A stretch of DNA of 64,000 nucleotides from an uncultured Dehalococcoidia bacterium (GTDB taxonomy: Bacteria > Chloroflexota > Dehalococcoidia > Lucifugimonadales > G958296245). A program made the translations under genes and the position numbers. Within the stretch, counting starts at the first letter, position 1. Every line of letters begins with the position of its first letter. Location of the stretch: contig OY282458.1 in the NCBI GenBank assembly GCA_958296245.1, positions 1 through 64,000 of the forward strand, given 5' to 3'. The notes below the pieces were generated by a model. It searched no databases. It was not told the origin of the DNA and worked only from the letters and a program-made list of their open reading frames with translations. Below are positions 3,109 to 59,132 of this stretch, one piece after another.

Positions 3109-4524
3109 TTATTCGCAACCGGGAGGGTAGGCCGCTGTGGAGACCAAGCGCCCAGACGGGTCGTACAGCCCCGCGGTATCGGGCGAAGAGTTGCTCCACA
3201 CCGCGCTGCTGCTGCCGAAGCTGAACCCTCCCCATTCGGGGTGGTCTTCGTTGGTATAGACCCGCACCGTATCCCCCGGGCCGAGTCTCCACGCCGGGAA
3301 GTCGAAGGATGGGCGGCCATCGGACACGTCAACCAGTCGCCAGCCCTTCAGGTCCTCGGGCGCGTCTCCGTCGTTGGCGATCTCTACGTACTCGTCCGGC
3401 TCCTGCCGGGAGGCGATGCCGTCGAAGAACACGCAACGTATCACAACGTTGGCGCCCGAGGCGGTTTGGGGCGTCGGGCTGGGCGTCGGCGTGCCCGAGT
3501 CGCCGCGCTGCTCACCGGCTGGCGCGGAGCTCTTTGGCGGCCGCCATCCGGCCTCTATAGCCTCTTCCTCTGTACAGAACAGGCGCTCACCGGCCGCCTC
3601 GTCGATGACCGTCCGGGAGTAGAACGGGCTCTCCGGCGTATGGTAAATCTTGTCGCCGTTTCTCCCTATGTTGCCCTTGATGACCGGCTCCGAGGTACCG
3701 GAGAAGGCGCACGTCCCGGGAGTTGGCGTCGGGGTCGGGGTCGGCGTCGGCGTAGCTGTCGCGGTGGGAACAGGAGTTGGCGTTGGGGTCGGCGTCGGCG
3801 TGACTGTCGAGGTGGGAATGGGCGCGGGCGTTGGGGTCGGCGTCGGCGTGACTGTCGCGGTGGGAACAGGAGTTGGCATTGGGGTCGGCGTGGGTGTGGC
3901 CGCAGCAGCGGGGATGGGCGTCGGCGTGGCTGTCGCGTCGGGAACGGGTGCGGGCATCGGCGTCGGCGTGGCCGTAGCAGCGGGGATGGGCGTAGGCGCA
4001 GCTGTAACCGCAGCGATGGCGATGGGCGCGGGAGTAGGCTCCGGCGTGGGTGTGGCCGCAGCAGCGGGGCGGGGCGTAGGCGCGGCTGTGACCGCAGCGA
4101 TGGCGATGGGCGCGGGAGTAGGCTCCGGCGTGGGTGTGGCCGCAGCAGCGGGGCGGGGCGTAGGCGCGGCTGTGGCTGCGGCGGTGGGAGCAGGCGTGGG
4201 CGTAGGAGCGGCTGTGACCGCAGCGATGGCGATGGGCGCGGGCGTCGGGGTCGGCGTGGGTGTGGCGGTGGGGCTAGGCGTGGTCGTCGGAATCGTCGCG
4301 GGAGTGGCCGTCGGCGTTGCCGTGGCTGTAACAGTGGCCACGGGGCTCAAGGCCGCCAAGGGTGTAACGGTCGCCGTTGCCGCGGCAGTGGGAGCAGACG
4401 CGGTAGGTGCGGGCGTGGACGGCGGAGTCGGCGTCGGCAGGGGTGCGCTCCCGCAAGCGATGATCAGCATGGCGGCCACAGCCAGCGCCGCGGCGCCTGC
4501 GCAGCTACTGGCGGCCGTCGACAA
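3109..4524 (-). CDS. Secreted lipoprotein with Thr/Pro-rich stalk, sunset domain and lamin-tail domain
   Basis: 471 residues. There is a signal peptide with a lipobox ending IIAC near residue 24. Residues about 30-275 are an extremely Pro/Thr/Ala-rich low-complexity stalk of PTPTPTP blocks, including repeats of the [12 protein letters not shown] type. Next comes a compact domain with [26 protein letters not shown] and [17 protein letters not shown], which matches the sunset domain seen beside secreted nucleases. The C-terminal about 110 residues form a lamin-tail/LTD domain ([25 protein letters not shown]). It is probably a surface-anchored adhesion or nucleic-acid-binding protein; its role is not known. 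Confidence 0.85.
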
Positions 4525-4677: not shown

Positions 4678-5739
4678 CTACGGCGCGACCTCTATGAGAT
4701 GGCCGCCGAAGGCTCCGGGCGCGGTCACTTCGCCTATGACCGCCGCCGCTTCGACGCGGCGCGCTTCCAACTCGCGGACCAACCGGTCCTTACGCGCTGG
4801 CGGCACGGCGATCAGCAGTCCGCCCGAGGTCTGGGCGTCGCACAACAGCAGCTTTGCGGCCTCGCCGGCGCCCCCGTGCCAGAGCACCTCCCGCTCTGCC
4901 GCCGCCAGATTGCGCCTAGTCCCGCCCGGGGCGACGTTCTGCTCCAAGAGGTCCCATACGCCGTCCAAGACGGGCGCCCGGCTCTGCGAGATCCGCGCCG
5001 CAGCGTTGCTCGCCCGGAGCATGGCCAGCAGATGGCCGATGAGCCCGTACCCGGTGACGTCGACACAGGCATGTACGCCCACCTTCGCCATGGCATGGGC
5101 CGCCTCGTGGTTCAAGGTCATCATGGACTGCACGGCCCGGTCCAGCACGTCGGGCTTGGCCTGACCATTCTTCCCGGCAGTCGTGATGATTCCGGTGCCG
5201 ATGGGCTTGGTGAGCACGAGGAGGTCGCCCGGGCGGGCGCCCGCGTTCGTAACCTGCTTGCCCGGCTCGACCAGCCCGGTTACCGCGAGCCCGTACTTGG
5301 GCTCGTCGTCATCGATCGTGTGGCCGCCTACTATGAGCATACCCGCATCCTTGGCTTTGTCCGAGCCTCCCTTCAACACCGCGCCCAAGACGTGGGCGGG
5401 CAGACCGGACGGGAACGCAACGATGTTCAGACCCAGCAGAGGCCTGGCGCCCGTAGCGTATATGTCGCTGAGCGCGTTTGCGGCGGCTATTGCCCCGAAG
5501 GAGTAGGGGTCGTCGACGATGGGCGGGAAGAAATCGACCGTCTGGACCAGCGCGACGCCGTCCGACAGCCGATAGACGGCGGCGTCGTCGCCGCTGTCGT
5601 AGCCGACCAGCAGATTGGGGTCGTCTGTAGCGGGTAGCTGGCGCAGCACCTGCGCCAGGTCGTCTGGACTAAATTTAGAGGCTCAGCCGGCGCACGATGC
5701 GAGCGCCGTTAGCCTAGTCTCCTCCCTATTCGTCGTCAC
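4678..5739 (-). CDS. selD: Selenide, water dikinase; selenoprotein read through an in-frame UGA
   Basis: Makes selenophosphate from selenide and ATP for Sec-tRNA synthesis. Without readthrough the frame would start at a GTG at 5649, but family homology clearly continues upstream. From GTG 5739, with GGAGG five bases before it, the protein begins VTTNREETRLTALASCAG, then UGA (5683-5685), then ASKFSPDDLAQVLRQLP. This places selenocysteine at the position of the catalytic Cys17 of E. coli SelD, with the conserved Lys (Lys20) three residues later. The total is about 353 residues, the normal length. Later motifs include DDAAVY, VQTVDFFPPIVDDP, GGHTIDDDEPKYG and DVTGYGLIGHL. A hairpin follows the UGA. 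A family A element lies about 70 bp upstream. Confidence 0.93.
5638..5658 (-). promoter_or_regulatory. Candidate bacterial SECIS hairpin in selD
   Basis: In the mRNA sense, CUGGCGCAG and CUGCGCCAG are perfect complements around a GUG loop, giving a 9-bp stem. It begins 24 nt after the UGA, with the loop 33 nt downstream. From memory, the bacterial SECIS consensus asks for a stem, a short apical loop with an early G, and a loop roughly 16-37 nt after the UGA; this fits. SelB binding is inferred. Confidence 0.75.
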
Positions 5740-5806
5740 CTCGGCCTCCGTTGGAGTGCAAGCATTAGGGGCCCGGTCAGAATAGCACAAGCCGCCCCCA
5801 ATCGGC

Positions 5807-5981
5807 GTAACCGTTTAGAGCTCGTGAAGCCCTTTTCGACTGACTAGCCCCGATAAAAGCAGACGTCTTTGATCCCCACCCGCCCAACCCTTGGTAACTG
5901 GGGGCACAGCCCCCAGACCCCTGCCAGAGGGGAGGGCCTCTATGGACTTCCCCCTCTGGTCTCACAGAGTCTGAACAGTTT
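5807..5981 (-). repeat. Family A element, full-length, reverse orientation
   Basis: About 175 bp bounded by imperfect terminal inverted repeats (GTAACCGTTTAGAGCTCGTG at the left, CTCACAGAGTCTGAACAGTT at the right). The family core lies inside in reverse: CGATAAAAGCAGACGTCTTT, GGTAACTGGGGGCACAGCCC. It sits between the divergent selD and the solute-binding protein gene. No coding capacity. Confidence 0.85.
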
Positions 5982-11255: not shown

Positions 11256-11289
11256 GTGCTCGGTTCGGGTTGACTTAACAACCGAATAC

Positions 11290-11425
11290 TTGGCGGAGGC
11301 GCCCAGTTCCTGAACGTGGAACCGGGCCGTAAGAGTGGAAGCCGGTCGAAGTCCGGCACTGTCCCGCAACGGTAGGTCCCGAGGCCCATAGCGCCCGGGG
11401 CGAGTCCGACCGACTGCCTCCGCCC
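11290..11425 (+). promoter_or_regulatory. Cobalamin riboswitch
   Basis: The closing stem is GGCGGAGGC (11292-11300) with GCCTCCGCC (11415-11423). The conserved core follows the AdoCbl-riboswitch pattern: GTGGAAGCCGG, GAAGTCCGGCACTGTCCCGC, AACGGTA, then a B12-box-like GAGTCCGACCGACTGCC. It lies upstream of a B12-type importer, so B12 would repress uptake. Confidence 0.9.
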
Positions 11426-11469
11426 GTGTCAACGGCCTTCGAGGAAGGGTACGGGCATGGGCATTCTTC

Positions 11470-11553: not shown

Positions 11554-12480
11554 ATGAGGATGCTCAGTATGGCAAACCCTCCCCTCGACAGGCTCCGCCT
11601 CTACGCGGCCGCCGCGGCTGCCCTAGTGCTTGCCGCGTGCAGCGCTCAGCCCGCCCAGCCAACAGCGCCGCCGGCGCCCTCCGCCGTCTTCCCGTACGCC
11701 GTACAGGACAGCCGGGGCAATGAGGTAGTCTTCGACTCCCCCCCGGATAGGATCATCGCCTTCGACTCGGCGGCTGTGGAAATCCTGTTCGCAATCGGCG
11801 AGGGCCATAGGGTTGTGGGCACTCACGACTTCGTGACGTATCCACCGGAAGCGGCCGGCGTGGCGAGGATAGGAGATGCCTTCAACTTCAGCATCGAGAA
11901 GGCCGTAGCCCTCAAGCCCGACTTGGTCTTCGTCTTCTTCGACAGCCCCATCGAGGACCTGGAGAGGGCGGGGCTGAAGGTGTTGTACGTCGAGTCGCTG
12001 AAGGATGAATTCATACAGATCGCCGACAACATCCGCACGTGGGGCCGAATTACCGGGGCTGCATCCGCCGCCGAGGAGGTTGCCGCCCGCTTTCAGGAGC
12101 GCGTCGCGGCCATTGAGAAGAAGATGGAAAATCGGGGTCGGGGGCCGTCGGCGCTCCAGGACGTAGGGGGGTTTTGGGCGCCAGGCCAAGACACGCTGAT
12201 GGGCGAGGTGTTCGACCTGCTGAAGCTGCGAAACATTGCCCACGACGTGGAGGGCTACGCGCAGATAAGCCCAGAGGTCATCGTGGAGCGCGACCCTGCC
12301 GTGATCATCGCCGCCGACCCCGCGTCGATTACCGGAAACCCGGCGTTCCGGGACGTGACGGCCGTCACGGACGGCGCGGTGTTCAAGCTGTCCAGCGACG
12401 CGTTGTCCATTGCCGGGCCCAGGTTCATCGACGGGGTCGAGGAGCTTGCCGCCTTGATCTACCCCAATCTGTTCGAGTGA
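11554..12480 (+). CDS. btuF: Cobalamin-type ABC transporter substrate-binding lipoprotein
   Basis: 308 residues. A signal peptide with lipobox (LVLAAC, Cys about 29) is followed by a class III (helical-backbone) binding protein: DSRGNEVVFDSPPDRIIAFD, AVEILFAIGEGHRVVGTHDF, ALKPDLVFVFF, then the second lobe DTLMGEVFDLLKLRNIA and SPEVIVERDPAVIIAADP. These motifs are shared by vitamin B12 and ferric siderophore receptors. The riboswitch directly upstream argues for cobalamin. The start could also be ATG 11569. The permease begins inside its stop codon. Confidence 0.88.
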   Translation: MRMLSMANPPLDRLRLYAAAAAALVLAACSAQPAQPTAPPAPSAVFPYAVQDSRGNEVVFDSPPDRIIAFDSAAVEILFAIGEGHRVVGTHDFVTYPPEAAGVARIGDAFNFSIEKAVALKPDLVFVFFDSPIEDLERAGLKVLYVESLKDEFIQIADNIRTWGRITGAASAAEEVAARFQERVAAIEKKMENRGRGPSALQDVGGFWAPGQDTLMGEVFDLLKLRNIAHDVEGYAQISPEVIVERDPAVIIAADPASITGNPAFRDVTAVTDGAVFKLSSDALSIAGPRFIDGVEELAALIYPNLFE

Positions 12481-18955: not shown

Positions 18956-19290
18956 GTAACCGCGTTCAGCCTCTGAGAGACCTGAAGGGGAAAGTTCAAG
19001 AGGGGTTCTCCCCTCTGGCAGGGGGTCTGGGGTGCAACGCGGCTTGCTGAACGCCGTGAGCATGGTTCTCCCCTCTGGCAGGGGGGTCTGGGCCCACCAG
19101 CCTATATTCATGTCCCCTACGGGTTCTCCCCCTGGCAGGGGGTCTGGGGTAGGCGCCTCCTTGGGAGCGCGGGCGTCTCGCCGTTCTCCTCTCTGACAGG
19201 GGTCTGGTGGCTGTGCCCCCAGTTACCAAGGGGCGGGCGGGTGGGAATCAAAGACGTCTGCTTTAGAGGATTTTCCCCGCAGCCTGCTAG
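18956..19290 (+). repeat. Compound repeat: family A with four repeated core starts, a family D piece and a family B end
   Basis: A family A left end at 18956 (GTAACCGCGTTCAGCC) is followed by four irregularly spaced copies of GTTCTCCCCTCTGGCAGGGG near 19004, 19068, 19125 and 19184. A reverse family D fragment lies at about 19150-19182. Then come the A core (GCCCCCAGTTACCAAGGGGC) and a family B right terminus (CCGCAGCCTGCTAG, 19277-19290). It fills the gap between efp and the next gene; no gene is seen. Confidence 0.8.
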
Positions 19291-49660: not shown

Positions 49661-49888
49661 GTAACTGTTCAGACTTCGTGAGGTCCCTTCGACTGGCGTA
49701 GCCACAGAGGTCTTTGATCCCCACCCACCCGCCTATTGGTAACTGGGGGCACAGCCCCAGACCCCCGCCAGAGGGGGAGAACCCTCTTCCTGGAGCGTGT
49801 TCAGGATGGGGGTTCCCCAGACCCCTGCCAGAAGGGAGAACCCCCCTCTGGACTTCCTCCCTCGGGTCTCACAGAGACTGAACAGTTT
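49661..49888 (-). repeat. Family A element, full-length, reverse orientation
   Basis: 228 bp. Left GTAACTGTTCAGACTTCGTG, then AGGTCCCTTCGACTGGCGTA, the core TATTGGTAACTGGGGGCACA, a doubled CCAGACCCC.GCCAGA segment, and right CTCACAGAGACTGAACAGTT. It fills most of the gap upstream of selA. Confidence 0.87.
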
Positions 49889-49946: not shown

Positions 49947-51308
49947 ATGACCAGCGAGTTCCGTTCCCTTCCCAGCGTCAACGCCGTCCTATCGGACTGG
50001 CGGGTTCAGAAACTCGTCGACGAGTACTCCCACGGCGCGATGCTCGAACTGGTCCGGGCCAAGCTCCACGATGCCCGCGGGGTCATAGCCTGCGGGGGGG
50101 AGGCGCCGGGTCTGGACGACCTCGTGGCGGACGTCGCAGGCGACACCGCCTCGCTCTGGAGGCCGCGGCCCTCACAGGTCATAAACGCCACCGGCGTCGT
50201 GCTGCATACCAACTTGGGACGCGCTCCCCTGAGCGGGGAGGCGGTGGAGGCAGCCCGCCTTGCCGCCGCCGGCTACGCCGACCTCGAGTTGGACTTGGAG
50301 ACAGGCCGACGCGGCTCCAGACAGGCCCAAGTCTCCCGCCTCCTGCGCCAGCTCACCGGCGCAGAGGCGGCCGTGGCCGTAAACAACAACGCGTCTGCCC
50401 TGCTGATCGGGCTCTCCGCCGTCGCCTCGGGCAAGGAGGTCATAGTCTCTCGAGGGGAGGCCATCGAGATCGGAGGGGGCTTCCGCATCCCAGACGTTAT
50501 GAGGCAGAGCGGCGGCGCCCTCGTAGAGGTGGGCACGACCAACCGCACCTATGCCCGGGACTTCGAAGAGGCCATTACCGACGACACCGCCGCCATCCTG
50601 TCGGCCCACGCCAGCAACTTCCGGGTAACGGGGTTCACCCATTCGCCCACGATAGATGATCTGGCGGAGTTGGGCCGGCGGCGTGGCATCCCGGTCCTAC
50701 ACGACCTCGGCAGCGGCTGCTTGCTGGATACGACGCAGTTCGGGCTGGCCCGAGAACCCAGGCCCCAGGACAGCGTCGCCGCCGGCGTGTCGTTGTCCTT
50801 CTTCTCCGGAGACAAGCTGCTGGGCGGCCCACAGGCCGGGATAATCATCGGCGGCCGCAGCCTCGTAGATACGGTGTCACGACACCCGCTGGCCCGCGCC
50901 GTTCGAATAGACAAGCTCAGCCTCGCCTCCCTCGCCGCAACCTTGGCCCACTACCTGAAGGGAGAGGCGGTAGAGAAGATTCCCGTCTGGCGCATGATTG
51001 CAGAACCTCGAGATTCCCTCCGGGAGAGGGCATCCGATTGGGCCGCCCACCTGGGCGGCGGCGCCGCAGTGGCCGAAGGTCTATCCACCGTGGGCGGCGG
51101 CAGCCTCCCGGGCGAGACGCTCCCCACCTCCCTGCTGAGTCTGAGGGCTTCCAACGCCGCCGACCTCGCCTCACGTCTTAGACGCGCTTCACCACCGGTG
51201 ATAGCCCGCGTCAAGGACGCTGCAGTCGTGTTGGACCCGCGAACGGTGCTCCACGACCAGGACGACGCGCTCCTCGCGGTGGTGCGCGGATGTCTGGCCG
51301 AGGGGTAG
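49947..51308 (+). CDS. selA: L-seryl-tRNA(Sec) selenium transferase
   Basis: About 453 residues from ATG 49947 (MTSEFRSLPSVNAVLSDWRV). PLP-dependent, decameric in known cases; it converts Ser-tRNA-Sec to Sec-tRNA-Sec using the selenophosphate made by SelD. Motifs: VINATGVVLHTNLGRAPLS, AAVAVNNNASALLIGLSAVA, ISRGE-like VIVSRGEAIEIGGGFRIPDV, EVGTTNRTYARDFEEAI, and the PLP-Lys in FFSGDKLLGGPQAGIIIG. With selD in the window it shows a working Sec pathway. rarA overlaps its 3' end. Confidence 0.96.
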   Translation: MTSEFRSLPSVNAVLSDWRVQKLVDEYSHGAMLELVRAKLHDARGVIACGGEAPGLDDLVADVAGDTASLWRPRPSQVINATGVVLHTNLGRAPLSGEAVEAARLAAAGYADLELDLETGRRGSRQAQVSRLLRQLTGAEAAVAVNNNASALLIGLSAVASGKEVIVSRGEAIEIGGGFRIPDVMRQSGGALVEVGTTNRTYARDFEEAITDDTAAILSAHASNFRVTGFTHSPTIDDLAELGRRRGIPVLHDLGSGCLLDTTQFGLAREPRPQDSVAAGVSLSFFSGDKLLGGPQAGIIIGGRSLVDTVSRHPLARAVRIDKLSLASLAATLAHYLKGEAVEKIPVWRMIAEPRDSLRERASDWAAHLGGGAAVAEGLSTVGGGSLPGETLPTSLLSLRASNAADLASRLRRASPPVIARVKDAAVVLDPRTVLHDQDDALLAVVRGCLAEG

Positions 51309-54535: not shown

Positions 54536-54747
54536 ACTCTGTAAGACCCGAAGAGGTTCTCCCCTCCGGCAAGGGGGCTGCGGGCGGGGTCGGGCGGGCG
54601 AAGGCGTCTTGCATCGTTCTCCCCCTCCGGCAGGGGGTCTGGGGGCTGTGCCCCCAGTTACCAAGGGGCGGGCGGGTGGGAATCAAAGAACGTCTGCTTT
54701 ATCGGGGTTACGCCAGTCGAAAGGACCTCACGAAGTCTGACAGTTAC
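54536..54747 (+). repeat. Family A element, full-length
   Basis: Left AACTGTTCAGACTCTGTAAG, two GTTCTCCCC.TCCGGCA segments (near 54556 and 54616), core GGGGGCTGTGCCCCCAGTTA, then CGTCTGCTTTATCGGGGTTA and right CTCACGAAGTCTGACAGTTA. It fills the space between the immunity-like gene and fmdB. Confidence 0.87.
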
Positions 54748-55961: not shown

Positions 55962-56088
55962 CTGCCCGCAGTGGGTCTGGGGGCTATGCCCCCAGTTACC
56001 AAGGGGCGGGCGGGTGGGGATCAAAGACCGTCTGCTTCATCGGGGCTTACGCCAGTCGAAAAGGACCTCACGAACTCTGAACAGTTAC
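55962..56088 (+). repeat. Family A element, left end missing
   Basis: Core GGGGGCTATGCCCCCAGTTA, CAAAGACCGTCTGCTTCATC, GCCAGTCGAAAAGGACCTCA and right terminus CTCACGAACTCTGAACAGTT. The left terminus is not recognisable. The gap 55828-56141 holds nothing else. Confidence 0.8.
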
Positions 56089-58910: not shown

Positions 58911-59132
58911 GCTGCGGGGCCGAGAGGCTTTCCCCTTCCAGCAGGGGTCTGGAGGCTTGCGCCCCCAGTTACCAAGGGGCGGTGGGGATCAAAGACGCCT
59001 GCTTTATCGGGGCTACGCCAGTCGAAAAGCCTCACCAAGTCCGAACAGCTACCGGATATAAAATCTCTTCCTCTTCCTGGCAGGATGGGGGAATTAAGGA
59101 AGATCCGTGAAGGTTTCTTCCGCAGCCTGCTA
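58904..59132 (+). repeat. Nested repeat: family A core inside family B
   Basis: Family B left terminus (GTAGGCTGCGG, overlapping the hisF stop) and right terminus CCGCAGCCTGCTAG (ending near 59132). Between them lies a family A body: CCCCCAGTTACCAAGGGGC, CCTGCTTTATCGGGGCTACG, GCCAGTCGAAAAGCCTCACC, CCGAACAGCTACC. Then TATAAA (59057-59062) and the B stem. It separates hisIE from the rest of the his cluster. Confidence 0.78.

Follow-up and report, generated by a model that had tools for sequence, protein, structure and literature searches.

A predicted selenocysteine-containing selenophosphate synthetase in a Dehalococcoidia genome, with predicted SECIS hairpins in two registers among its relatives

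Sec-containing forms of the selenophosphate synthetase SelD/SPS have long been known and have been surveyed (PMC1794560, PMC4561486). The selD gene described here, from an uncultured Dehalococcoidia bacterium, clearly belongs to this known class: Sec is predicted at the same N-terminal position, together with the conserved Lys, and the genome likewise holds a full set of SelA, SelB and tRNA-Sec, with a predicted SECIS just downstream of the UGA. It departs from the described enzymes in that its Sec lies in a CxxU motif (CAGU) and not in UxC, and its order departs from them in placing the SECIS loop at either 27 or 33 nt after the UGA. The bacterial SECIS model requires a spacing of 16-37 nt, a loop of 3-9 nt with a G in the first two loop bases, a stem of 4-16 bp and an energy of -7.5 kcal/mol or below (PMC13188914). 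The hairpin of this gene fits on every count (spacing 33 nt, a 3-nt GUG loop that thus begins GU, 9 bp, -15.5 kcal/mol); unlike that consensus, its relatives use two mutually exclusive hairpins, two codons apart.

The selD gene and its in-frame UGA

The window, the whole stretch of DNA analysed, comprises the first 64,000 nucleotides of a host genome of 2.685 Mb in one contig (Table 1). A sequence-only reading had proposed that selD in this window is itself a selenoprotein gene, which ordinary translation would begin at GTG 5649 and so deprive of its catalytic N-terminus. The list of open reading frames agrees: under the standard genetic code the only frame at the locus runs from GTG 5649 to 4678, so that standard annotation would truncate the gene and omit the active site. 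If the UGA is read as Sec, the frame is open throughout, from GTG 5739-5737 to TAG 4680-4678, the translation across the UGA is ...LTALASCAG-U-ASKFSPDDLAQVLRQL..., and the conserved Lys foreseen three residues past the UGA is present. Reading selD with Sec corrects an annotation in which the active site would be lost.

Table 1. Positions of the features discussed, numbered along the window
Feature	Position	Strand	Evidence
selD, selenide water dikinase, 353 aa with predicted Sec19	4678..5739	minus	TIGR00476, NF002098, PDB relatives 3u0o and 2yye
GGAGG ribosome-binding site, 5 nt 5' of GTG 5739	5745..5749	minus	sequence reading
UGA codon, predicted Sec19, catalytic position	5683..5685	minus	translation, alignment, relatives
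Cys16 codon, candidate partner thiol (CxxU)	5692..5694	minus	alignment of relatives
Conserved Lys22 codon	5674..5676	minus	translation, alignment
Bacterial SECIS hairpin, register B, 9 bp, GUG loop 5649-5647, 33 nt after UGA	5638..5658	minus	fold, shuffles, covariation
Register A hairpin, weak potential, ACCUG-GCG-CAGGU, 5 bp, excludes B	5648..5660	minus	sequence, relatives
selA, selenocysteine synthase, 503 aa	49797..51308	plus	PF03841, 442 bits at 50178-51248; ORF
Dispersed repeat copies	1325-1345, 5865-5885, 19235-19255, 49710-49730, 54670-54690, 56008-56028, 58976-58996		

In profile searches the extended protein scored 379 bits against TIGR00476 (cut-off 125), matching from residue 9 on, and 339 bits against NF002098 (cut-off 299), matching from residue 5 on. 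It combines a curated equivalog score across the full length with a catalytic Cys/Sec near the N-terminus and a Lys at +3. Aligned with the SelDs of 3u0o and 2yye, which we take to be the E. coli and Aquifex enzymes, the family match carries through the UGA, and residue 19 faces the N-terminal catalytic Cys of both solved proteins, as had been claimed. The 3u0o protein aligns with the extended SelD end to end; its catalytic Cys lies within CxC, whereas the window protein has the predicted Sec, preceded by Cys at -3 and followed by Ser at +2.

Relatives were sought in 98 genomes from this order, which consists of SAR202-type Dehalococcoidia within the Chloroflexota. At the threshold used, SelD was found in 81 of these, giving 83 matches, each read through exactly one TGA. 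After alignment this TGA stood at the Sec codon in 83/83, and Cys in none; the N-terminal Cys/Sec segment, whose absence from homologues had been named as counter-evidence, is therefore conserved with its in-frame UGA. In a sample of the phylum the codon was TGA in 60/75 and TGC or TGT in 15/75, proportions that reflect deliberate over-sampling of stop-free matches and are not frequencies. The nearest named records come from SAR202 and other Dehalococcoidia of the Chloroflexota, and UGA at the Sec codon was also seen in matches from other phyla. Among the Chloroflexota genes, one (L059) has two in-frame TGAs, and the Cys-type SelDs of two genomes (L132 and L149, in G252 and G280) lie inside fusion-like frames of 743-750 aa.

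The residues around the UGA vary by lineage. The motif C-x-G-U-x-[S/A/G]-K occurs in 74/83 same-order genes and G-A-G-U-x-C-K in many other SelDs of the phylum, while both Cys together were found in 0/143 UGA genes. This pattern fits a swap of the presumed partner thiol between UxC and CxxU, resting on few transitions; a phylogeny-aware sign test of the swap, with few supported independent pairs, gave no significance.

A predicted SECIS hairpin in two registers

The perfect 9-bp hairpin with a GUG loop that had been noted past the UGA is present (CUGGCGCAG-GUG-CUGCGCCAG, read from 5658 to 5638) and forms part of the minimum-energy fold; the apparent start codon, GTG 5649, is its loop. For the synonymous null, each gene was re-coded for the same amino acids, and perfect-stem hairpins fitting the bacterial SECIS model were scored. 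A hairpin at least as stable arose in 1.2% of 4000 re-codings of the window selD (P = 0.012), and one of -7.5 kcal/mol or below in 9%; dinucleotide shuffles of the full 61-nt stretch gave z = -1.0. Taken alone, the window hairpin thus reaches only moderate significance.

What makes the hairpin decisive as a predicted SECIS is that relatives conserve it and show covariation. A hairpin of -7.5 kcal/mol or below was present in 80% of the 83 same-order UGA genes against 14% of their synonymous shuffles, and in 75% against 20% for UGA selD genes from the rest of the phylum; in Cys-SelD controls the two values were equal (7% and 7%). The 20% of same-order UGA genes with no hairpin passing this simple criterion perhaps have bulged stems, which perfect-stem scoring omits. 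Counting the UGA as codon 1, the synonymous wobble base of Ala codon 11 can pair with position 1 of codon 15 in 70/79 genes, compared with 42 expected by shuffling, through the combinations GCG-CGN, GCT-AGY and GCC-GGC. This is covariation across the stem of the hairpin first noted in the window, whose loop is codon 13 and which we call register B.

Some relatives without the B stem instead have GGACCUG-GNN-CAGGUCC, with the loop at codon 11, 27 nt after the UGA (register A). Both registers use the same CAG and are mutually exclusive, and exactly two codons separate their loops (27 and 33 nt after the UGA). The window selD is of type B and could also form 5 bp of A; the coordinates first given for it and its reading as a selenoprotein gene hold, with the nuances that Ser stands at +2, where the E. 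coli-type CxC motif has its second Cys, and that this order uses a second SECIS register besides the one seen in the window. Scored as simple stems at the -7.5 kcal/mol cut, and with related genes treated as separate, the same-order genes divide into 26 with only A, 18 with only B, 20 that can form either and 19 with neither. One relative (G002) has two UGA selD genes (L089/L282 and L111/L304), one with a register B SECIS and the other with register A.

Register A covaries as well. In genes with Gly or Val at codon 11, a wobble C in Asp codon 9 goes with a G-first codon 13 (22 genes) and a wobble U with an A-first codon 13 (11 genes), with zero exceptions. The A loop opens with GG or GU in 24/26 A-only genes compared with 4/38 B-capable genes, where it is mostly GC; because the classes were defined by stem energies, the independent part of this result is the loop association and not the stem. 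A SelD tree that leaves out the hairpin region implies at least 8 register changes and 6 changes of the Asp wobble. Independent pairs on well-supported branches number only 3-4, and the informative ones are concordant apart from rare pairings; given so few supported pairs, a phylogeny-aware sign test of the register shift gave no significance. The raw association is strong, and the independent shifts resolved on the tree are few.

The genes able to form both hairpins suggest a SECIS that slid along the reading frame. We lean towards the view that within this order it moved by exactly two codons, between loop codons 13 and 11, by way of such genes, that the encoded residues (DLAQVLRQ or DL[V/G]QVL[S/E/K]) follow the RNA register, and that the partner thiol of the Sec is CxxU or UxC by lineage, never both. 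We know of no earlier description of a two-register SECIS with its covariation, and it may be new. The register series offers natural material on the freedom of SelB in the distance from UGA to SECIS loop.

Selenium use in the genome and alternative readings

The selA gene noted in the window was found there (Table 1). The selB and tRNA-Sec genes expected elsewhere, whose absence would have told against a selenoprotein, are also in the genome: SelB has 620 aa and its C-terminal SelB wing domain, and the tRNA-SeC (anticodon tca) scored 65.9 bits. SelA, SelB and tRNA-Sec(UCA) are therefore all encoded in this genome.

Three further genes (loci L256, L257 and L264) have a UGA at a redox position followed by a hairpin. 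Two encode peroxiredoxins with the UGA where the redox residue is expected (TSGU-T, genome positions 1944879-1945259, minus strand; WUTYC, 157557-157931, plus strand), and one is SelW-like with the UGA in a CxxU motif (CVPU, 747506-747730, minus strand); most matches to the latter among relatives have one TGA. The family-by-family search of the genome therefore predicts a selenoproteome of at least four members, and a self-serving system, with SelD as its sole selenoprotein and no selenouridine synthase, was rejected on account of the two peroxiredoxin genes and the SelW-like gene. The genes of a full Sec trait, including several predicted selenoproteins, are present in SAR202-type Chloroflexota; our literature search found no joint mention of SAR202 and selenoproteins.

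From the gene, the position of its UGA, the machinery genes, the conserved covarying hairpin and the other UGA genes, all directly observed, we consider it very probable (about 97%) that selD encodes a Sec-containing selenophosphate synthetase, with SelB delivering Sec at the UGA via the hairpin; insertion and catalysis are predicted from what is known of how SelA, SelB and SelD work. SelB with GTP and Sec-tRNA(Sec) would bind the hairpin just 3' of the UGA and bring Sec to the ribosome, which would then read on to the TAG. Full-length SelD would make selenophosphate from selenide and ATP using Sec19, with Lys22, and SelA would use it to make Sec-tRNA(Sec), which SelD itself, the two peroxiredoxins and the SelW-like protein would all require.

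The UGA might instead be a genuine stop, or the product of a sequencing error, leaving a truncated or decayed selD that starts at GTG 5649, as the standard code would have it. Such a gene would lose both the catalytic residue and Lys22, and its start codon would be a hairpin loop before which no ribosome-binding site is seen. UGA stands at the same codon in 83/83 relatives, with Cys in none, and the synonymous constraint downstream is conserved; we regard this account as extremely improbable. Genome-wide reassignment of UGA, for example to Trp, or suppression without SelB is hardly credible either. We found nothing in its favour, and among the genes examined in-frame UGA occurs only at redox positions (SelD codon 19, the two peroxiredoxins and the SelW CxxU), while other matched domains in the genome contain no stop and a dedicated tRNA-Sec, SelA and SelB are present. 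That the hairpin merely mirrors conservation of the DLxQVL protein sequence has in its favour that this stretch is indeed conserved at the protein level too, but the excess of hairpins over synonymous shuffles, the covariation of synonymous wobble bases in registers A and B alike and the zero excess in Cys-SelD genes make it very unlikely.

Other candidates for selenium use were also considered. None of the three molybdopterin oxidoreductases in the genome has a UGA in its domain, so a Sec formate dehydrogenase was rejected, as was a Sec AhpD-like protein, the one AhpD-like match being without UGA. The family search found no selenouridine synthase (MnmH/SelU) in the genome, and no match to GrdB, for which it was run without a positive control. 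Scanning the window for UGA frames with SECIS-like hairpins gave 41 by mechanical criteria, among which only the surroundings of selD were recognised as a redox family.

Elsewhere in the window, a dispersed repeat (core GGGCGGGTGGGGATCAAAGAC) is present in 7 copies with at most 3 mismatches, against 0.03 expected by chance, and the copies appear to be intergenic. A cobalamin riboswitch (RF00174, 39.6 bits) lies at 11280-11435 on the plus strand, just 5' of a substrate-binding-protein-like ORF (11554-12480). The ORF adjoining selD (3109-4524, minus strand) has a lipoprotein-like start followed by a long low-complexity stretch rich in Pro, Thr and Ala.
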